A stretch of DNA of 64,000 nucleotides from Pseudomonas mendocina. Lineage in GTDB: Bacteria; Pseudomonadota; Gammaproteobacteria; Pseudomonadales; Pseudomonadaceae. Of this stretch, positions 33,320 to 42,186 are shown one piece after another. A program made the translations under genes and the position numbers. A model generated the notes under the pieces. That model ran no database searches, was not told the origin of the DNA, and saw nothing but the letters and a program-made list of their open reading frames with translations. Within the stretch, counting starts at the first letter, position 1, and the number at the start of each line of letters is the position of its first letter. The stretch lies in contig NZ_LR134290.1 of assembly GCF_900636545.1 (NCBI RefSeq), positions 5,128,838 through 5,192,837 on the forward strand, read 5' to 3'.

Positions 33320-33589
33320 TCAGTTACCTATGCCGCATATGCTCAGAGGGAAAAGAACGATCCCAAGAACTCGCGGAAACAGAGCGGCCAGTCCGGCACT
33401 ACCTACTACACCAGACAGAATCCAGATACCGATTCCGGCAAGGCTGGTAGGGCCGCTGGCGATCAGAATGAACGAAAACAAGCCAATCCATATGCCAGCC
33501 ATAGCACCGATGCAGGCCGAGCGAACTCGCTCACGTCGGGTAATCGGTCGGCGCCACCATACGCCTAAACGGGCCAGTGTTTCTTTCAC
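33320..33589 (-). CDS. small membrane protein coupled to cobN, function unknown
   Basis: 89 residues with a GTG start that overlaps the cobN stop by four bases (GTGA), so translation coupling supports it being real. Residues 1-25 are basic and cytoplasmic (RPITRRERVRS), followed by three hydrophobic stretches (ACIGAMAGIWIGLFSFILIA, SLAGIGIWILSGVVGSAGLA, VLGIVLFPLSICGIG). The pattern resembles small membrane proteins found after cobN/cobW in pseudomonads; a part in cobalt supply is a possibility from position only. No metal-binding histidines are seen. Confidence 0.65.
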   Translation of the reverse strand: MKETLARLGVWWRRPITRRERVRSACIGAMAGIWIGLFSFILIASGPTSLAGIGIWILSGVVGSAGLAALFPRVLGIVLFPLSICGIGN

Positions 33590-36500
33590 ACGCCCTCCTC
33601 ACTATCGAGCAGCAGATTCTCCAGCGCCTCTCGGTATTCGCCAGGGTTCTCCCACAGGCCGCGCTGTTGGGCTTCCAGCAGGCGTTCGAGAATATCATTG
33701 AGCGCACCGGGGTTGTGCTGCTGGATAAAGTCGCGGGTATCCCTGTCGAGCAGGTAGGCATCGGTCAGCAGCGCGTATTGGTGATCGTCCACCAGCTCGC
33801 TGGTGGCGTCGAAGGCGAACAGGTAGTCGATGGTCGCGGCCAGCTCGAAGGCGCCCTTGTAGCCGTGGCGCTTCATGCCCTCGATCCACTTGGGGTTGGC
33901 AGCGCGGGCACGCACCACGCGGCTCAGCTCTTCCTTTAGGCTGCGAATGCGCGGCGTATCCGGCTGGCTGTTGTCGCCGAAGTAGCTGGCCACCTTTAGC
34001 CCGCGCAGGGTTTCCACCGCCGCCAGCATGCCGCCCTGGAACTGGTAGTAGTCGTTGGAATCGAGGATGTCGTGCTCGCGGTTGTCCTGGTTGTGCAGCA
34101 CCGCCTGCATCTGCTCCAGGCGCTCGACGAAGCGCTGCCGCGCCGGCGCGCCCTCGGCGCCGCTGCCGTAGGCGTAGCCGCCCCAGTTGAGGTAGACCTC
34201 AGCGAGATCCGCGCGGCTCTGCCACAGGCGCTCCTCGATGGCGTTCTGCACCCCGGCGCCGTATGCGCCCGGCTTGGCGCCGAACACCCGCCAGCCGGCC
34301 TGACGCCGCGCTTCGGCTTCATCCAGACCGCCATCCTTGAGCGCCAGCGACTCGCGCCAGACCCGCGCCGACAGCGGGTTCATATCTTCCGGTTCATCCA
34401 GTTCGATCACCGCCTGCACGGCCTCGTCGAACAGGCGGATCAAATTGCTGAAGGCATCGCGGAAGAAGCCCGATACGCGCAGAGTCACATCCACCCGGGG
34501 TCGACCAAGCTGTTCCAGCGGCAACACCTCGAAGCGCTCGACGCGCTGGCTGCCGGGCTGCCACACCGGACGCACGCCCATCAGCGCCAGTGCCTGGGCG
34601 ATATCGTCGCCGCCAGTGCGCATGGTCGCCGTGCCCCACACCGACAGGCCTAGCTGGCGCAGGTGGTCGCCTTCGTCCTGCAGATGGCGTTCGAGCAGGC
34701 GATCAGCCGCCTGCACGCCGAGGCGCCAGGCGGTCGGCGTGGGCAGATGGCGCACGTCGACGGTAAAGAAGTTGCGCCCGGTGGGCAGCACATCGAGACG
34801 CCCGCGACTGGGCGCACCACTGGGCCCCGCAGGGACGAAACGCCCTTCCAGTGCCGCCAGCAGGCCGCCCATCTCAGCGTCGCCGCAGGCATCCAGCAAC
34901 GGCGCGATATGCTCGGCCAAGCCGTCGAGGATCAGCGCCACCTCGGCGCCGAAAGCGTCGATTTGCTCTCCGTTCAGGCGCCGTACGATCAACTCCAGTG
35001 CCAGCAGCTCCAGGCGTTCACGGGTATCGCCGACGGTACGCCACAGGCTGTTATCCACAGCCTGCAACGCCTGTGGACGCAGCCCATCCCAGGGCTGGCC
35101 CATGTCGCAATCCAGCGGATCGAGGCCCAGTTCCAGGCCACGGGCCAACGCTCGCAGCAGGCTGGCATTGGCGCCCTGACCGTCGCCACGGGGAATGCGC
35201 AGCAGCGCCAGCAGGGTGTCGCGACGCAGTTGTCCACTGGGCGACTCGCCAAATACGTGCAGGCCATCGCGAATCTGCGATTCCTTGAGGTCGCACAGGT
35301 AGGCGTCGAGTTGCGGCAACCAGCTGTCGGCATCGTCGTTGAGTTGCAGGCCTAGCTCGCGGTCAAGGCTGGCCTCGCGCACCTTGGCCAGAATCTCGCC
35401 ACGCAGCTCGACAGCGCGGCGCTGGTCGAGCTGGCTGGCGTCGTAGTATTCGTCGGCCAGGCGTTCCAGATCGCGCAGCGGGCCGTAGCTCTCGGCACGG
35501 GTCAGCGGCGGCATCAAGTGGTCGATGATCACTGCCTGGGTGCGGCGTTTGGCCTGCGCGCCCTCGCCCGGATCGTTGACGATAAAGGGGTAGATATTCG
35601 GCAGCGGCCCGATCAGCGCCTGCGGCCAGCAGCCCTCGGACAGGCCGACGCTCTTGCCCGGCAGCCACTCCAGGTTGCCGTGCTTGCCGACGTGGATCAG
35701 CGCATCGGCGGCAAAGGCCGTGCGCAACCAGGCGTAGAAGGCGATATAGCCGTGCGGCGGCACCAGATCGGGGTCGTGGTACACCGCTGCGGCGTCGAGC
35801 TGATAGCCACGCGCCGGCTGGATGCCGACGAAGGTCAGGCCGAAGCGCAGGCCGGCGACCATCATCCGCCCGCCGCGGAACATCGGGTCATCCTGCGGCT
35901 CGCCCCAACGCTCGCGCACCGCCCGCTGGTTGGCCAGCGGCAGGCTGTGGAAAAACCCAAGGTAATCGTCCAGCGCCAGGCTTTGCGCGCAGGGCCGTGT
36001 GTCCAGGCCGTCGAGGTCGTTGGTGACGCCGCCGAGCAGGCTGTGGACAAGTGCGGTGCCGCTATCGGGCAGGTTATCCACCGGATAGCCCTGTGCCTGT
36101 AACGCGCGGAGGATATTCAGGGCAGCAGCCGGCGTATCCAGACCCACGCCGTTGCCGATGCGACCATCGCGGGTCGGGTAGTTGGCCAGGATCAGGCCGA
36201 TTCGCTTCTGATCGTTGCTTTTGGTCGCCAACTGGCACCAGTTACTCGCCAGTTCCGCGATATAAGCCATCCCCGGCTCATGCGCCTGGTAGCACACCAC
36301 ATCGCTCTGGCTGCGCTCGCTGCGCCAGGCCAGGCCCTTGAAACTGATGGCGGTGCCGATCAGCCGACCATCCAGCTCGGGCAGCACAACATGCATGGCC
36401 AGGTCACGCGAGCCCAGGCCCTGGGCGCTGGCCTGCCATTGCGCCTGATTGTCCAGCGAGCAGATGGCTTGCAGCACCGGGATATCACGACGGAACACCC

Positions 36501-37335
36501 GCGCCTGCGGCGCCTCGGGGTTGGACAGGGCGAAGCCAGTGGTATTGACGATCAACGCGGCGCTGGTTTCGTCCAGCCAGGCCTGCACCTGATCCAGGCA
36601 GGCCGGCTCCTTGAGGCTGGCCACGGCCATCGGCAGCGGGTTGAGGCCCTGACGAACGAGGTGCGCGCAGAAGGTATCGACGAACGCGGTGTTCGCCGAT
36701 TGCACGTGGTTACGATAGAACAACAGCGCCACCACAGGCGCGGCGGGTTGCCACTGCGCCCGCCAATCGGCTAACTGGGCAGGACTGCGTTGTGGGTGAT
36801 AGAGACCGACGCGCGGCAGCGGTTGCGGCTCCTGCCATGTGTCGTCTCGCCCTAACCAGCGGCTGCCGATGCAGCGGAACAACTGGCGGGCATTGTCCAA
36901 GCCGCCCTGCCGCAGGTACTGCCAGAGCCGCTGGCTGTCCTCTTCGCTGACGTTGCCGAGGGCATTCAACTCCGGGTCGGGCTTGTCATCACCCGGCACC
37001 ATGATCACCGTGGCGCCGCGCGCGCCCAGCTCTACCAGACGCTCCACGCCGTAGCGCCAGTAGCTGACGCCACCATGCACCGAAATCAGAATGACCTTGG
37101 CATGCTGCAGCACCTGCTCGACGTAATAATCCACCGAGGCGTTATTGCTCAGTTGCGCCGGGCTGGTCAGGCGCAGGCTGGGGTAGTCATCCGGCAGTTG
37201 CCGGGCGGCTTCGGCCAACAACGACAAGTGCGAATCCCCCGTGCACAGGATCACCAGCTCGGCAGGCGTCTGGCCAAGGTCGGCGATGCTGTCGGCCGGC
37301 AGTTGGGCGCCGGGCTGGGTGCGTAGGAGATGCAT
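33586..37335 (-). CDS. cobN: cobaltochelatase subunit CobN
   Basis: 1249 residues, full length for the family. Large subunit that binds the corrin ring and cobalt in the ATP-dependent chelation of hydrogenobyrinic acid a,c-diamide. Visible marks: the N-terminal ALIVNTTGFAL region, DALIHVGKHGNLEWLPGKS, GCWPQALIGPLPNIYPFIVN and NPKWIEGMKRHGYKGAFE near the C terminus. Needs the ChlI-like and VWA partners, encoded at 26945-28638. Ninety-one bases after cobW, separated by a REP palindrome; both are probably under the cobalamin riboswitch at 38585. Confidence 0.95.
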   Translation of the reverse strand: MHLLRTQPGAQLPADSIADLGQTPAELVILCTGDSHLSLLAEAARQLPDDYPSLRLTSPAQLSNNASVDYYVEQVLQHAKVILISVHGGVSYWRYGVERLVELGARGATVIMVPGDDKPDPELNALGNVSEEDSQRLWQYLRQGGLDNARQLFRCIGSRWLGRDDTWQEPQPLPRVGLYHPQRSPAQLADWRAQWQPAAPVVALLFYRNHVQSANTAFVDTFCAHLVRQGLNPLPMAVASLKEPACLDQVQAWLDETSAALIVNTTGFALSNPEAPQARVFRRDIPVLQAICSLDNQAQWQASAQGLGSRDLAMHVVLPELDGRLIGTAISFKGLAWRSERSQSDVVCYQAHEPGMAYIAELASNWCQLATKSNDQKRIGLILANYPTRDGRIGNGVGLDTPAAALNILRALQAQGYPVDNLPDSGTALVHSLLGGVTNDLDGLDTRPCAQSLALDDYLGFFHSLPLANQRAVRERWGEPQDDPMFRGGRMMVAGLRFGLTFVGIQPARGYQLDAAAVYHDPDLVPPHGYIAFYAWLRTAFAADALIHVGKHGNLEWLPGKSVGLSEGCWPQALIGPLPNIYPFIVNDPGEGAQAKRRTQAVIIDHLMPPLTRAESYGPLRDLERLADEYYDASQLDQRRAVELRGEILAKVREASLDRELGLQLNDDADSWLPQLDAYLCDLKESQIRDGLHVFGESPSGQLRRDTLLALLRIPRGDGQGANASLLRALARGLELGLDPLDCDMGQPWDGLRPQALQAVDNSLWRTVGDTRERLELLALELIVRRLNGEQIDAFGAEVALILDGLAEHIAPLLDACGDAEMGGLLAALEGRFVPAGPSGAPSRGRLDVLPTGRNFFTVDVRHLPTPTAWRLGVQAADRLLERHLQDEGDHLRQLGLSVWGTATMRTGGDDIAQALALMGVRPVWQPGSQRVERFEVLPLEQLGRPRVDVTLRVSGFFRDAFSNLIRLFDEAVQAVIELDEPEDMNPLSARVWRESLALKDGGLDEAEARRQAGWRVFGAKPGAYGAGVQNAIEERLWQSRADLAEVYLNWGGYAYGSGAEGAPARQRFVERLEQMQAVLHNQDNREHDILDSNDYYQFQGGMLAAVETLRGLKVASYFGDNSQPDTPRIRSLKEELSRVVRARAANPKWIEGMKRHGYKGAFELAATIDYLFAFDATSELVDDHQYALLTDAYLLDRDTRDFIQQHNPGALNDILERLLEAQQRGLWENPGEYREALENLLLDSEEGV

Positions 37336-37360
37336 GTTCGCTCCGAGGGAGGCGCGAATC

Positions 37361-37420
37361 GTGGGAGGGGCTTTAGCCGCGACTATCCGCGAACCGGATC
37401 GCGGCTAAAGCCCCTCCCAC
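37361..37420. repeat. REP-type palindrome between cobW and cobN
   Basis: Perfect 22-base inverted arms (37361-37382 and 37399-37420) starting GTGGGAGGGGCTTTAGCC, with a 16-base centre. Same family as the elements at 9541, 33069 and 59141. In the cobW-cobN message it would form a very stable hairpin and could lower or protect expression of one side. Confidence 0.9.
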
Positions 37421-37426
37421 AATCAC

Positions 37427-38476
37427 TCAGGCCAGCGCCGCCTTCAACTCGGCCTCGATGGCAGCACGGTCGAGCTGCTGGCCGATCACCACCAGGCGGC
37501 TGATGCGCTGCTCGTCGGCTTGCCAGGCGCGGTCGAAGTGGCGGTCGAAGCGCTGACCGACACCCTGCACCAGCAGACGCATGGGTTTGCCAGGGATGGC
37601 GGCGAAGCCCTTGACCCGCAGAATGCCGTACTTGGTCACTGTATCCTTCAGCGCAGCCAGCAGGCGCGCCTCCTCGGTTTCCGGTAGTTCCACGTGGAAC
37701 GAGTCGAATTCTTCGTGATCGTGGTCTTCGTCTTCATCGTCGTGGTGGGTGCGACGGCTGTCGATATGCAGCTCGGTTTCACTGTTCAGGCCCAGCAACA
37801 CGCTCAATGGCAGATCACCACCATGGGCCTCGATCACCTTGACCGCTGGCGGCAGCTCCTCGGCCACCTCGGCGCGCACCGCCGCCAGGGCTTCGGCGTC
37901 GAGCAGGTCGGCCTTGTTGAGGATGACCAGGTCGGCGCTGGCCAGCTGGTCGGCGAACAGCTCGTGCAGCGGCGACTCATGGTCGAGGTTGGGGTCGAGC
38001 TTGCGCTGCTCGTCCACCTGATCGGGGAAGGCGGCGAAGGTGCCGGCAGCCACCGCCGGGCTGTCGACCACGGTGATCACCGCGTCGACCGTGCAGGCGT
38101 TGCGGATTTCCGGCCAGTTGAAGGCCTGCACCAGCGGCTTGGGCAGGGCCAGACCGCTGGTTTCGATCAGGATATGGTCGAGGTCGCCACGGCGTGCCAC
38201 CAGCTCGCGCATCACCGGGAAGAATTCTTCCTGCACGGTGCAGCACAGGCAGCCGTTGGCCAGCTCGAAGACGCGACCATTGGCCTCCTCCTCGCTGCAG
38301 CCGATGGAGCACTGCTTGAGGATCTCGCCGTCGATGCCCAACTCGCCGAACTCGTTGACGATCACCGCGATACGACGACCGCCGGCATTGGCCAGCAGAT
38401 GGCGCAGCAGGGTGGTTTTGCCGGCACCGAGAAAACCGGTGACGATAGTGACTGGCAGTTTGGCGAGGGTTTTCAT
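37427..38476 (-). CDS. cobW: CobW-type GTPase (metallochaperone)
   Basis: 349 residues from ATG 38476. G3E P-loop GTPase: Walker A GFLGAGKTTLLRHLL, the metal-binding NGCLCCTVQEEF (C-x-C-C), DHILIETSGLALPKP and the guanine-specificity NKADLLD. Between the GTPase and the C-terminal CobW domain lies a His/Asp-rich stretch (THHDDEDEDHDHEEFDSFH, about 245-265) suited to binding Co(II) or Zn(II). It is thought to deliver cobalt to CobN. It leads the minus-strand unit behind the second cobalamin riboswitch, and carries a parS palindrome at 37687-37700. Confidence 0.93.
   Translation of the reverse strand: MKTLAKLPVTIVTGFLGAGKTTLLRHLLANAGGRRIAVIVNEFGELGIDGEILKQCSIGCSEEEANGRVFELANGCLCCTVQEEFFPVMRELVARRGDLDHILIETSGLALPKPLVQAFNWPEIRNACTVDAVITVVDSPAVAAGTFAAFPDQVDEQRKLDPNLDHESPLHELFADQLASADLVILNKADLLDAEALAAVRAEVAEELPPAVKVIEAHGGDLPLSVLLGLNSETELHIDSRRTHHDDEDEDHDHEEFDSFHVELPETEEARLLAALKDTVTKYGILRVKGFAAIPGKPMRLLVQGVGQRFDRHFDRAWQADEQRISRLVVIGQQLDRAAIEAELKAALA
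37687..37700. other. parS centromere-like site (perfect palindrome) within cobW
   Basis: GTTCCACGTGGAAC is a perfect 14-base palindrome equal to the core of the bacterial parS consensus TGTTTCACGTGAAACA in its pseudomonad form. It lies in the cobW codons for SFHVEL. ParB (encoded at 54423) binds such sites to organise and segregate the origin region. The site is about 26 kb from the rpmH-side origin. No second equally good copy was found in the window. Confidence 0.8.
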
Positions 38477-38584
38477 CAGGGGCCCCGTGGAGTCGATAAG
38501 TTCGGCGGACGGGTACGCGCAGGCGGGCACGCAAGGGCGTGCTGGCCGCGTCGGATCACCCCGTCCGAGCAAGTGGCTGGTCTA

Positions 38585-38752
38585 TCGAGGCAGGTCTCCT
38601 GGCTCACGGTCTGCACGCTGTGCGTCCTTCACCTTCCCGCTTGAGGCAGTGGTGTATCGAAGGAGTTGCGACCGTTTACAGTTGCGGGGGCAGCCAGGGC
38701 ATCGACCCTGTTCCCTCTTAGCTCCCCGGCGGCTTGCCGGGAAGAACCTCGA
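38585..38752 (-). promoter_or_regulatory. cobalamin riboswitch upstream of cobW-cobN
   Basis: Read on the minus strand: P1 arms TCGAGG (38747-38752) and CCTCGA (38585-38590), the AGCTAAGAGGGAA block, GCTGCCCCCGCAACTGTAAA, GCCTCAAGCGGGAAGG and the B12 box GCCAGGAGACCTGCC (38589-38603). All core parts are present in order. It should lower cobW-cobN expression when adenosylcobalamin is plentiful. Between it and the cobW start lie about 108 bases that form the expression platform. The divergent cobE gene starts 100 bases beyond the aptamer 5' end. Confidence 0.95.
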
Positions 38753-38852
38753 AAGCGAGAAGGCTACGCAGGCCGCGGCGGCCGGTCAATCGCGGTTGAC
38801 CGCTGGCAGGTGCCATGATGAGCTACGCCACCCTCCCACACGAATACCGCTC

Positions 38853-39281
38853 ATGACCGCCAGCCACCTAGATCCCCCCGCCGCCATGGTGGTTGCCGGC
38901 CTAGGCTGTCGGCGTGGATGTGCACAGGACGAATTGCTCGACCTGCTGACCCACAGCCTGGCTCGGCATGAGCTGACGGTGGACAACCTTGCCGGCCTGG
39001 CCAGCATCGCCCAAAAGCGCGACGAAACCGGCCTGCATGGCCTGGCCGAGCATTTGGGCCTGGAGTTGGTGTTCTTCGCCCCAGAGCAACTGAACACCTA
39101 TCAAGCCATGGCAATCGGCAATTCATTGACCCTGGCAGCTGCAGGCAGCCCTGCCGTAGCCGAGCCTTGCGCACTGGCACTGGCAGCGCGCATGGGCGCA
39201 TCGCCCTGCCTGCTCGGCGAGAAAAACCGCAGTGCCAGCGCCACTTGCGCGCTGGCCACCTTCGATAGAGAACTTGCATGA
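38853..39281 (+). CDS. cobE: CobE, CbiG C-terminal domain homologue
   Basis: 142 residues from ATG 38853. Single CbiG_C domain: VVAGLGCRRGCAQDELLDLL at the N terminus, ASIAQKRDETGLHGLAEHLG and the CALALAARMG region. CobE is required for aerobic cobalamin synthesis, though its exact reaction is not established. The rest of a CbiG-like protein is fused to CobJ at 7851, so this organism carries the two parts of CbiG on separate genes about 30 kb apart. Its stop overlaps the cobM start by four bases (ATGA). Start chosen because family members begin here. Confidence 0.9.
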   Translation: MTASHLDPPAAMVVAGLGCRRGCAQDELLDLLTHSLARHELTVDNLAGLASIAQKRDETGLHGLAEHLGLELVFFAPEQLNTYQAMAIGNSLTLAAAGSPAVAEPCALALAARMGASPCLLGEKNRSASATCALATFDRELA

Positions 39282-40033
39282 CCGTCTACTTTATCGGTGC
39301 CGGCCCCGGCAACCCCGAACTGATCACCGTCAAGGGCCAGCGACTTATCCACAACTGCCCGGTGATTCTCTATGCAGGGTCACTGGTGCCCGAGGCCGTG
39401 CTGCAAGGCCACAGTGCCAAACAGGTGGTGAACACCGCCGAGCTGCACCTGGGCGAGATTATCGAGCTGCTGCGCCAGGCCCATGCACGCGGCCAGGACG
39501 TGGCCCGCGTGCATTCCGGCGACCCATCGCTGTACGGTGCCATCGGCGAACAGATTCGCGAGCTGCGTGCCCTAGGTATTCCCTTCGAGATCATTCCCGG
39601 CGTTACCGCCACCGCCGCCTGCGCGGCCTTGCTGGAAAGCGAGCTGACCCTGCCCGGTATCGCTCAGACAGTGATCCTCACGCGCTACGGCACCACCTCG
39701 CCGATGCCTGAGGGTGAGCAGTTACATGACCTTGCCCGGCATCGCGCGACCATGGCCATCCACCTCGGCGTGCGCCAGTTAGCGGCCATCGTTGGCGAAC
39801 TGCTGCCGCACTACGGTGCCGACTGCCCCATCGCGGTTATCCACAGAGCGAGTTGGCCGGATCAGGATTGGGTGCTGGGCACCCTGGCCGATATCGAAGA
39901 GAAAGTTGCCGTCAAGGGCTTTCGCCGCACGGCATTGATCCTCGTTGGGCGGGTGCTCGATCCCGCTGCGTTTGCAGAGTCGGCGCTATATGACGCCACT
40001 CATAGCCATCTCTACCGCCTTGGTAACGATTGA
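39278..40033 (+). CDS. cobM: precorrin-4 C11-methyltransferase
   Basis: 251 residues. SAM-dependent C11 methylation of precorrin-4 to precorrin-5, between CobJ and CobF. Tetrapyrrole methylase marks: VYFIGAGPGNPELITVKGQR, RVHSGDPSLYGAIGEQIREL, EIIPGVTATAACAAL, LTRYGTTSPMPEGEQL and the C-terminal ALILVGRVLD. Coupled to cobE by an ATGA overlap. No riboswitch precedes this pair on the plus strand; the promoter must lie in 38753-38852, next to the divergent riboswitch. Two exact DnaA nonamers fall within the gene (39345, 39837). Confidence 0.94.
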   Translation: MTVYFIGAGPGNPELITVKGQRLIHNCPVILYAGSLVPEAVLQGHSAKQVVNTAELHLGEIIELLRQAHARGQDVARVHSGDPSLYGAIGEQIRELRALGIPFEIIPGVTATAACAALLESELTLPGIAQTVILTRYGTTSPMPEGEQLHDLARHRATMAIHLGVRQLAAIVGELLPHYGADCPIAVIHRASWPDQDWVLGTLADIEEKVAVKGFRRTALILVGRVLDPAAFAESALYDATHSHLYRLGND

Positions 40034-40254: not shown

Positions 40255-40485
40255 CTAGAGCTGCACCTCGACCCGCTTGATACCCAGGCCTCGCAGCTCC
40301 GGTATCACTTCATCCAGGCTGGCAAAGGTTTCTACCTGCTCGGTTTCATCCACTAGAAAGAAGCTGCGGCCGGCATCTTTCTTGAAAAACACGATCCATT
40401 CGGCGATGTTGGCCGGATTGGCCATGATCTGAGTATCGAATAGAACGCCCTCGGCTGTTCTGCGTTTTACATCTGCGCGCTTCAT
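40255..40485 (-). CDS. 76-residue protein of unknown function, divergent from the ParD-like gene
   Basis: 76 residues, not recognised. ATG 40485 has a strong ACAGGAG site eight bases upstream, which supports translation. The protein is soluble and mixed charge: a basic N terminus (MKRADVKRRTAEGV), an aromatic patch (AEWIVFFKKDAGRSFFLVDE) and an acidic C-terminal helix (ASLDEVIPELRGLG) ending KRVEVQL. No cysteine or membrane segment. It is divergent from the ParD-like/aminopeptidase pair across 171 bases containing a 30-base palindrome, and convergent with cobM (221-base gap that is AT-rich and shows no gene). A role tied to that pair is inferred from position. Confidence 0.65.
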   Translation of the reverse strand: MKRADVKRRTAEGVLFDTQIMANPANIAEWIVFFKKDAGRSFFLVDETEQVETFASLDEVIPELRGLGIKRVEVQL

Positions 40486-40616
40486 CCGCTCTCCTGTTCC
40501 AGCATGACTCGGGCCCGCTTGCGGACTTCAGGCAGGCGGGCAGCCCTAGTGTAAAGGATGAGAGAGTCCCATTTGTCCCTGCTACTGATGCTGGTGGGAT
40601 CAAACCCGTTCGTGTT

Positions 40617-40646
40617 TATATATGCTTCATATATGAAACATATATA
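40617..40646. promoter_or_regulatory. 30-base AT-rich palindrome abutting the ParD-like gene's ribosome site
   Basis: The 30 bases form an inverted repeat around a TTCATATATGAA core, with 14 of 15 pairs matching (only C40625/A40638 differ). The last base runs into the SD sequence AGGAG (40646-40650), nine bases before the GTG start at 40657. This is what an autoregulatory operator of a ribbon-helix-helix antitoxin-like protein would look like; as RNA it could also fold over the ribosome site. Confidence 0.75.
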
Positions 40647-40656
40647 GGAGAGCACC

Positions 40657-40869
40657 GTGGGTATCGTCAATATCGATGATAAGTTGCATGACCAAATTCG
40701 CCGGGCAAGCAGCGTCTCGAACCGCTCGATCAACGCCCAGGCCGGCTTCTGGATACGCATCGGTATGCTCTGTGAGATGAACCCGGCGCTGAGTTTCAAT
40801 GAAGTGATGGCCGCGGAAATGCGTGCAGCAGGCGTGGCCGTTCCCCCGCGCATGGCGGATGCGTCATGA
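40657..40869 (+). CDS. ParD-like ribbon-helix-helix protein
   Basis: 70 residues from GTG 40657, with AGGAG just upstream. The N-terminal GIVNIDDKLHDQIRRASSV strand-helix and the second helix SINAQAGFWIRIGMLCE fit a ribbon-helix-helix dimer of the ParD-like group, named after the antitoxin of the ParDE toxin-antitoxin systems. No ParE-type toxin is nearby; instead the stop overlaps the start of a methionine aminopeptidase gene (ATGA), so the two proteins are made together. It likely represses its own promoter through the palindrome immediately upstream. Confidence 0.78.
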   Translation: MGIVNIDDKLHDQIRRASSVSNRSINAQAGFWIRIGMLCEMNPALSFNEVMAAEMRAAGVAVPPRMADAS

Positions 40870-41627
40870 GCAAGACACCTGAGGAGATCGCCCTTATGGC
40901 GGAATCCGGCAGGCTACTAGCCTCCGTATTCGGCTATCTGGATCGGCTGGACCTGCTCGGCATGTCGACCCTGCAGGTCAACGACCTTGTGGATAAGTAC
41001 ATCGTCGAGAAACTCGAGGCACGCCCGGCAAGCAAGGGTCAGTATGGTTTCGCCTATGTCATGAATACTTCACGTAACCAGGTGGTGTGCCATGGAGTCC
41101 CCAGCGCCAAGGAGTTTCTGCGCAGAGGCGATTTCGTGAATTTCGATATCACCCTAGAAAAGAACGGCTACCTAGCCGACTCGAGCAAGGTCTACCTGAT
41201 CGGTGACGTATCGCCGCAGGCGCAGCGACTGATACGCGTGACCTACGAAGCTCTGTGGAAAGGCATCGCTGCCGTACGTCCTGGCGCTCGCCTGGGAGAC
41301 ATTGGCCATGCAATCGAAAGCCATGCGCGTGCGCACGGCTATTCGGTGGTTCGCGACTACTGCGGTCACGGCATCGGCCGGGAAATGCACGAAGCGCCTG
41401 AAGTCCTGCATTGGGGCAAACCCGGCACCGGCCTGACGCTACGCGAAGGCATGACCTTCACCATCGAGCCCATGCTCAATCAGGGAACAGCGGATGTTCG
41501 CACCCTACGCGACGGCTGGACGGTGGTGACCTGCGACGGCCAACTCTCCGCGCAATTCGAGCACACCGTGGCGGTAACTCGCGATGGCGTTCAGGTGCTG
41601 ACGTTACGACCCGACGAAGCGCACTGA
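40866..41627 (+). CDS. map: type I methionine aminopeptidase (extra copy paired with ParD-like gene)
   Basis: 253 residues. Removes N-terminal methionine from nascent proteins. The pita-bread fold residues are all present: substrate histidine in VVCHGVPS, metal ligands D in VNFDITL and D in YLADSSK, H in CGHGIGREMHEAPEV, E in FTIEPM and E in QFEHTVAVT. It should be active. It lacks an N-terminal zinc-finger extension. The essential housekeeping map is usually beside rpsB, so this is probably a second copy. Translationally coupled to the ParD-like gene (four-base overlap). Confidence 0.88.
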   Translation: MSKTPEEIALMAESGRLLASVFGYLDRLDLLGMSTLQVNDLVDKYIVEKLEARPASKGQYGFAYVMNTSRNQVVCHGVPSAKEFLRRGDFVNFDITLEKNGYLADSSKVYLIGDVSPQAQRLIRVTYEALWKGIAAVRPGARLGDIGHAIESHARAHGYSVVRDYCGHGIGREMHEAPEVLHWGKPGTGLTLREGMTFTIEPMLNQGTADVRTLRDGWTVVTCDGQLSAQFEHTVAVTRDGVQVLTLRPDEAH

Positions 41628-41690: not shown

Positions 41691-42152
41691 TCAACCTGGG
41701 CAATTCAACTGTTCAGGATGAATCTCGACGGAAAACAGCACGCCATTTCGACCGAGGTAGGAATGTTCCTGATGGAGCCTATGCTTGCGCATCGCAGCCA
41801 TCAGTTGCGGTTCCTTGCAAGCCAGGCGCTCAAGGCCGCTACGGGCCCGTACTTGCATACTGGCCAGGAGTTCCTCGGAGAACATCCGCGCGGGGCGGTC
41901 GATCCGATACCGGTAGAAGATCGTGTCACCACCCATCAGTCCGATGTACTCAAGTGTGGTCAGCGCATCGACCTTCCTGGGAAGCGCGGCGTTCAAACTC
42001 GCCAAACTCTGGGCCAGCTCCGCCTGCTGGGCAACCCGCTCCTGCTCGGCCCTGTGAGCGAAGTAACGACCCGTACCGGCAATGACGATCACAGCCGCGA
42101 TACTCAGGTAAAAATTACGCAGATTGCGCCGTTTCTTCGGCGCCAGCTTCAT
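41691..42152 (-). CDS. membrane-anchored protein of unknown function
   Basis: 153 residues from ATG 42152, which has AGGG at a proper distance; an ATG six bases upstream overlaps that site. A basic N terminus (KLAPKKRRNLRN) and one hydrophobic segment (FYLSIAAVIVIAGTG, about 13-28) indicate a type II membrane anchor, followed by a short helical stretch (EQERVAQQAELAQSLASLNAAL) and a soluble domain with two cysteines (RLACKEP, QLNCPG). No family recognised. It lies upstream of glmS on the same side of the map but is read away from the palindrome module; its stop is 63 bases from the map stop, convergent. Confidence 0.65.
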   Translation of the reverse strand: MKLAPKKRRNLRNFYLSIAAVIVIAGTGRYFAHRAEQERVAQQAELAQSLASLNAALPRKVDALTTLEYIGLMGGDTIFYRYRIDRPARMFSEELLASMQVRARSGLERLACKEPQLMAAMRKHRLHQEHSYLGRNGVLFSVEIHPEQLNCPG

Positions 42153-42186
42153 CAACATCCCTGTCTACCTTTACGAACGAGAAACG

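Follow-up and report, generated by a model that had tools for sequence, protein, structure and literature searches.

Methionine aminopeptidase (MAP), which removes the N-terminal methionine from proteins whose second residue is small, is essential and serves as a target for antibacterials. Repressors of the CopG-like kind contact DNA through a strand that begins at their N-terminus. The systems closest to the locus considered here include a MAP subtype and an antitoxin pairing. A passage in PMC11773813 cites Bala et al. (2019) for a proteobacterial MetAP1 subtype in which Asn replaces the active-site Cys, and the title of that work, as cited there, speaks of the relaxed substrate specificity of the Asn-type MetAP1. 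Among ParD_like antitoxins, in turn, a pairing with a zeta toxin appears in the TASmania paper (PMC6504116). The combination of a ParD-like gene with a MAP gene was unreported in the open-licence papers that we searched.

The window, by which we mean the whole stretch of DNA that was analyzed, is the final 64 kb of a 5.19-Mb single-contig genome. The features with which this study is concerned are as follows.

40255-40485, minus strand: gene of a 76-aa protein (from the open reading frame list)
40618..40644, plus strand: candidate operator of three CRTATAYG-type units at 11-bp spacing, the core of palindrome 40617-40646 (pattern scan)
40646..40650, plus strand: AGGAG ribosome-binding site, abutting the operator (read from the sequence)
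40657..40869, plus strand: ParD-like protein (PF11903) of 70 aa that begins with Met-Gly, a putative ribbon-helix-helix autorepressor (Pfam, alignments)
40866..41627, plus strand: type I methionine aminopeptidase, 253 aa, Asn-gatekeeper subtype (Pfam, TIGR00500, ATGA coupling)

The reading frames proposed in the first-pass annotation, namely a 76-residue protein on the minus strand, a ParD-like protein and a complete MAP coupled to it by ATGA, were all found as described. The ParD-like protein scores 72.8 bits against PF11903 (gathering cut-off 23), the MAP at 281.4 bits passes the TIGR00500 cut-off of 171.35, and the stop of the first gene and the start of the second overlap by ATGA. The ParD-like gene starts with GTG in the window; of 143 unique related loci, 136 use ATG. 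The 30-base palindrome that had been claimed was confirmed as an inverted repeat at 40617-40646 with overlapping 18-nt arms that are 94% complementary, and it reaches the AGGAG. The promoter region is also AT-richer, as had been stated, with a GC content of 0.485-0.49 over 40500-40799 versus 0.61-0.68 across the cob genes at 38000-39899 and 0.535-0.63 inside the MAP gene (200-base windows in each case); a consensus scan found no sigma-70-like promoter.

An AlphaFold monomer model of the ParD-like protein, based on a 30-row alignment, contains helices at residues 8-41 and 47-57 and no strand. A Foldseek comparison of this model with the PDB gave no match at E <= 0.001 and none to a ribbon-helix-helix protein, and a profile search of PDB sequences returned no significant relative. 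Because the monomer model gave no such match, the putative ribbon-helix-helix fold is based on Pfam and on the clan table within PMC7354421.

Comparison across genomes shows that the pairing of the two genes is conserved outside close relatives, in many families of the Gamma- and Alphaproteobacteria. In our genus sample of 149 genomes, PF11903 occurs in 93 genomes at 94 places, and MAP lies directly downstream at all 94 of them (at least 81 by coordinates among the MAP matches listed, the other 13 from fetched stretches); at two of the 94 (L298 and L309) the downstream MAP is apparently broken. When the search began with MAP instead, each of the best 30 MAP loci in the genus had a ParD-like gene directly upstream. 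Class-wide, PF11903 was present in 68 of 369 genomes (78 matches), and among 30 loci from these 78 matches ten were of the MAP-linked subfamily, nine of them with MAP within the 1.5-kb flank. Named genomes were represented by the best 80 of at least 598 matching stretches, which is not a random sample; there, MAP flanks the ParD-like gene in 78 of 80 loci when both strands are counted, lying downstream on the same strand in 63 (one of which, L192, is a fragment), divergently in 15 and not at all in 2. The divergent loci come from Rhodobacteraceae-type genomes. A set of 143 unique ParD-like proteins, chosen by the motif RSIN[AS]Q[AS] from 145 unique loci, has MAP adjoining in 139 loci and absent in 4, a count that is not independent, since one of the two partners served as the bait for many of the loci; the counts that start from ParD are independent.

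The pair is not confined to chromosomes. A ParD-like match was found in 152 plasmid records, and of five examined four carry MAP and one lacks it. Scanning viral contigs with a ParD profile gave two matches, both with MAP. Single-sequence scans of viral contigs with the 76-aa and ParD-like proteins found no relative, and phages gave no match at E <= 0.01. When the neighbors at 85 loci were clustered, MAP was present in 71; the next cluster, LysR-type regulators, was present in 10, and some of the other clusters are antisense frames of the ParD-MAP pair itself. The solo ParD-like genes of L195, L206 and L035 (Ancylobacter, Aurantimonas and Aureimonas) are followed not by MAP but by the gene of a small protein that we read as NTF2-like; L195 has an exact operator even so. 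On a Klebsiella plasmid (L033), an annotated NTF2-family gene precedes the ParD-MAP pair.

These counts bear on the simplest alternative, that an ordinary duplicated map gene came to lie next to a ParD-like gene by chance in one Pseudomonas lineage. Two MAPs are indeed listed for most genus genomes searched, including some that lack a ParD-like gene, and the window pair is downstream of glmS, the 3' side of which we take to be the attTn7 insertion hotspot. A chance neighborhood is nevertheless refuted by the 78 of 80 named-genome loci (the best 80 of at least 598) together with the ParD-first pairing in the genus, and since the pairing and the operator are conserved over many families in two classes, we regard it as vanishingly unlikely.

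The palindrome is made of three CRTATAYG units, each itself palindromic, which are separated by 3 bases and lie 11 bp apart. If up to 2 mismatches are allowed, the half pattern matches the window four times, each time within 40617-40646; 100 shuffles gave a mean of 0.33 matches, and none reached 4. When the 149 genus genomes were scanned for RTATAYGNNNCRTATAYGNNNCRTATA with at most 1 mismatch, the pattern was found in 39, at one place each, and all 39 places adjoin a ParD-like gene and MAP; genus genomes without a ParD-like gene had no match at this threshold, and a reversed control pattern had matches in 2 of the 149. The window operator has 0 mismatches and is the sole place in its own genome at <=1 mismatch, and the main map gene of that genome has no operator site. 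Weaker forms occur in the remaining ParD-carrying genus genomes, for example with 2-4 mismatches in 16 of 20 stretches. Upstream of the 143 unique ParD-like loci there are 0-1 mismatches in 90, <=2 in 119 and <=3 in 134, while 2-base-block shuffles of the same upstreams reached 3 mismatches in 0.03% of cases and never fewer.

The operator is found irrespective of the arrangement of the genes. Among 18 named genomes whose ParD gene lacks an intact same-strand MAP, 16 carry it at the ParD gene with <=2 mismatches (the reversed control gave 2 matches in the same 18), and one of the 18 has two ParD loci with the operator and a divergent MAP at both. At divergent loci such as L164, L178 and L203, the same operator lies between the ParD-like gene and a MAP of another lineage with a Cys gatekeeper. 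The palindrome, the conservation of which had been singled out as a point to check, is kept at ParD-MAP loci across Gamma- and Alphaproteobacteria. Because the operator occurs at ParD-MAP places and the main map gene has no site, the regulator seems to be reserved for the locus that encodes it.

The interpretation that we favor is that an antitoxin-derived autorepressor holds a second, active type I MAP in reserve as an operon, and, the trigger excluded, we give it a probability of about 0.72. The ParD-like protein, kin of the antitoxins of ParE-like toxins, would bind the three CRTATAYG palindromes as cooperating dimers, at sites that are one helical turn apart, lie just before its own gene and reach the ribosome site. 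Once bound, it would repress both itself and the MAP gene, whether this is coupled to it or, as in Rhodobacteraceae-type genomes, divergent. Failure of the repressor would then allow the spare MAP to be made and N-terminal methionine removal to be restored. The first-pass annotation had suggested a spare MAP controlled from an operator of its own, and the conservation of pair and operator across the two classes, as judged from sequence, gives this good support.

The linked enzymes are predicted to be active. All seven catalytic and metal residues (five metal ligands and two active-site His), the roles of which we assume to be those in E. coli MAP, are present in the window MAP, and comparison shows the same seven without exception in the unique linked MAPs, of which 121 are on the same strand and 16 divergent. 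Differences appear in the substrate pocket, where the window MAP has Asn instead of the gatekeeper Cys, Gln instead of Tyr62 and Met instead of Phe177 (E. coli numbering). The gatekeeper Asn is at position 67 of the window MAP. The same-strand linked MAPs have Asn in 113 of 121 cases and Cys in 8, the divergent ones have Cys in 16 of 16, and the unlinked MAPs of the same set comprise 24 with Cys and 12 with Asn, these 12 being the genus MAPs without ParD. The main MAP of the window's own genome falls in the Cys group.

It is possible that the altered S1 pocket makes the spare resistant to inhibitors or damage, so that it goes on working once the main enzyme has been poisoned, thiol-reactive compounds being one example. 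This tentative idea, which we would not put beyond a minority chance, concerns why a spare is kept rather than how it is controlled and is compatible with the autorepressor reading. It draws on the prevalence of Asn among same-strand linked MAPs and on the Cys of the genome's own main enzyme, but Cys is retained in 8 same-strand linked MAPs and in every one of the 16 divergent ones, and resistance via the gatekeeper therefore cannot be the general purpose. Moreover, the sensitivity of MAPs to ovalicin is increased by Met at the Phe position.

The ParD-linked MAP appears nearly always to be an extra copy. The window's own genome has one other MAP, 52% identical, which adjoins a gene that, from its reading frame, we read as rpsB. 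Of 36 named-set genomes searched, all 33 with an intact linked MAP carry at least one further MAP, and each of the other three, two of which lack a linked MAP while the third carries a fragment, has one MAP elsewhere. Within the genus, two or more MAPs at E <= 1e-60 are among the matches listed for 91 of the 93 ParD genomes, the exceptions being G374, where the linked MAP looks broken, and G501, which is an 88% complete genome. As a separate observation, G468 has a third MAP (L087) of the Cys type, which is without a nearby ParD gene or operator; a copy of the 76-aa gene is found 0.4 kb away from it.

Extra-copy status would also suit a paralogue for metal limitation or stress, one that uses another metal or is needed under stress and is freed when its repressor is removed by proteolysis in the manner of antitoxins. 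Labile antitoxins are indeed known in general. Against such a paralogue, however, the metal ligands are identical, and the recurrent neighbor clusters listed for the 85 loci included no conspicuous metal regulator or transporter; we consider it doubtful.

To place the linked enzymes, a MAP tree of 83 rows was used, in which 45 rows represent the 137 linked MAPs, since most groups were thinned by fixed steps. The linked MAPs form an Asn clade, a Cys clade with one unlinked member, and a clade of divergent genes that is nested within alphaproteobacterial MAPs. An AU test of 45 linked against 31 other rows, with the 7 unlinked rows inside linked clades set aside, rejected a single clade of linked MAPs (p-AU 0.000117). 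This rejection and the separate clades thus indicate that the same type of repressor and operator has been joined to different MAPs. In the tree of the ParD-like proteins, which has too few columns to be resolved, labels of the linked MAP type are mixed; this fits an exchange of partners and does not show it.

Comparison also indicates that control by ParD is dispensable, because in twelve of the 149 genus genomes MAP persists although both ParD and a recognizable operator are absent: none of 14 upstream regions, from these 12 orphans and 2 other unlinked MAPs, has a TATA-N5/6-TATA match. Six of the twelve were placed in the tree, and all six fall inside the linked clade. In G467, an intact MAP lies beside a ParD gene with an in-frame stop at codon 13. 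The retention of MAP in such circumstances fits a repressor and not an antitoxin. The first-pass annotation had also raised a control derived from a toxin-antitoxin system. In the evolutionary sense this holds up, since sister PF11903 genes adjoin ParE-like toxins (15 of 20 by motif, and both of the two partners given to Pfam score PF15781), and as a live system it does not, given the survival of MAP without ParD or beside the stopped gene. The partner of the ParD-like protein belongs to TIGR00500/PF00557 and not to a toxin family, and PADLOC had no match for the genes of the ParD-MAP locus. The nearest of 20 sister upstream regions has 6 mismatches to the MAP-linked operator. Several ParE-linked sisters (the upstream regions of L006, L015, L016, L023, L026 and L028) share a different palindrome, about CTACAATTGTAG.

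In a true toxin-antitoxin pair, MAP would be the toxin, acting by over-trimming or relaxed specificity, and the ParD-like protein would be its antitoxin. The ParE-like partners of the sisters, the typical layout of a small first gene that overlaps the second and has an operator of its own, and the presence of the pair on plasmids all speak for this. Yet orphan MAPs persist inside the linked clade, G467 has an early stop in its ParD gene with MAP intact, the genes are divergent in Rhodobacteraceae-type genomes, and the partners stem from separate MAP lineages and have a normal housekeeping activity. Such a pair is, in our view, quite improbable, and the data are better described by the autorepressor.

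What would release this repressor is a matter for speculation, and the trigger that we favor is that the repressor itself, with its Met-Gly N-terminus, no longer has its first methionine removed. All 143 MAP-type ParD-like proteins have Gly as their second residue, with all four Gly codons used; the start codon stands directly before Gly2 in 142 of the 143, and the annotated starts agree in five of five plasmid records. The Met-Gly start would be a MAP substrate and opens the strand that is expected to touch DNA. A trimmed repressor could thus bind the operator and keep the spare MAP off, and where trimming fails, through an inhibitor, metal loss or damage, the untrimmed repressor might bind badly and the spare MAP be induced. 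Such a homeostatic loop would be compatible with the invariant Gly2, the position of the start codon and the use of several MAP lineages in two orientations. However, all 20 sister PF11903 proteins, with their starts as we read them, also have a small residue at position 2, of varied kind and followed by differing N-terminal lengths, which weakens the idea. A further point against it is that the monomer model did not yield a ribbon-helix-helix fold, and we judge self-sensing unlikely.

The 76-aa gene had been put forward as a third part of the module, a proposal that was not upheld. It is present in 83 of 149 genus genomes (in two or three copies in a few) but lies at ParD-MAP in only 5 of 30 MAP loci examined, namely the window locus and the four whose MAPs are most closely related to it, and it joins glmS in relatives. 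We therefore rejected it as a component and assign it to the glmS neighborhood. The protein had no Pfam, NCBIfam or PADLOC match, and a plasmid search with it found none. In G481 and G501, no ParD-MAP separates the two genes, and the 76-aa gene shares 4 bases with the end of glmS, in agreement with the earlier description of the block as an inserted cassette; because these relatives join the two genes directly, the ParD-MAP cassette most likely entered between glmS and the 76-aa gene. On the minus strand at 40482-40567, a short frame that ends in ...RAARLPEVRKRARVMLEQESG shares an ATGA with the 76-aa gene, as a coupled gene would; it has no relative outside its own genome in the MAP loci examined and may be a remnant.

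Two further neighbors deserve mention. Between the MAP gene and glmS, at 41691-42158 on the minus strand, a 155-aa protein with a hydrophobic N-terminal stretch is encoded, for which Pfam gave nothing and which occurs in the own genome's locus only among 35 loci compared. On the other side, cobN and a cobW-family gene precede cobM (33586-38572, minus strand). In eukaryotes, a MAP metallochaperone belongs to the CobW/COG0523 family, and the proximity of this gene to MAP is probably a coincidence.

In summary, a protein of an antitoxin family appears here to be joined to a housekeeping activity. If our interpretation is true, a widespread second MAP with a dedicated repressor would constitute a built-in reserve, relevant to the survival of MAP inhibition. 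Against the described systems, the locus compares as follows. The TASmania pairing (PMC6504116) likewise gives a ParD_like antitoxin a partner other than ParE, but that partner is a zeta toxin, and the words "peptidase" and "aminopeptidase" are absent from the main text of that paper. With the Asn-gatekeeper MetAP1 of Bala et al. (2019), as presented in PMC11773813, the window MAP shares the Asn in place of Cys; the passage in PMC11773813 mentions no repressor or operator, and the ParD-linked MAPs include Cys-type enzymes of other lineages as well. The housekeeping map gene has the fold family, 52% identity and the catalytic residues in common with the linked gene and differs in having a Cys/Phe pocket and neither a ParD-like gene nor an operator. 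Finally, the PF11903/PF15781 modules possess a homologous small protein, often an overlapping two-gene operon and, in several, an upstream palindrome. In the locus described here, by contrast, the partner is MAP, the operator consists of three CRTATAYG units rather than the CTACAATTGTAG of several sisters, and the MAP partner survives without the ParD-like gene.
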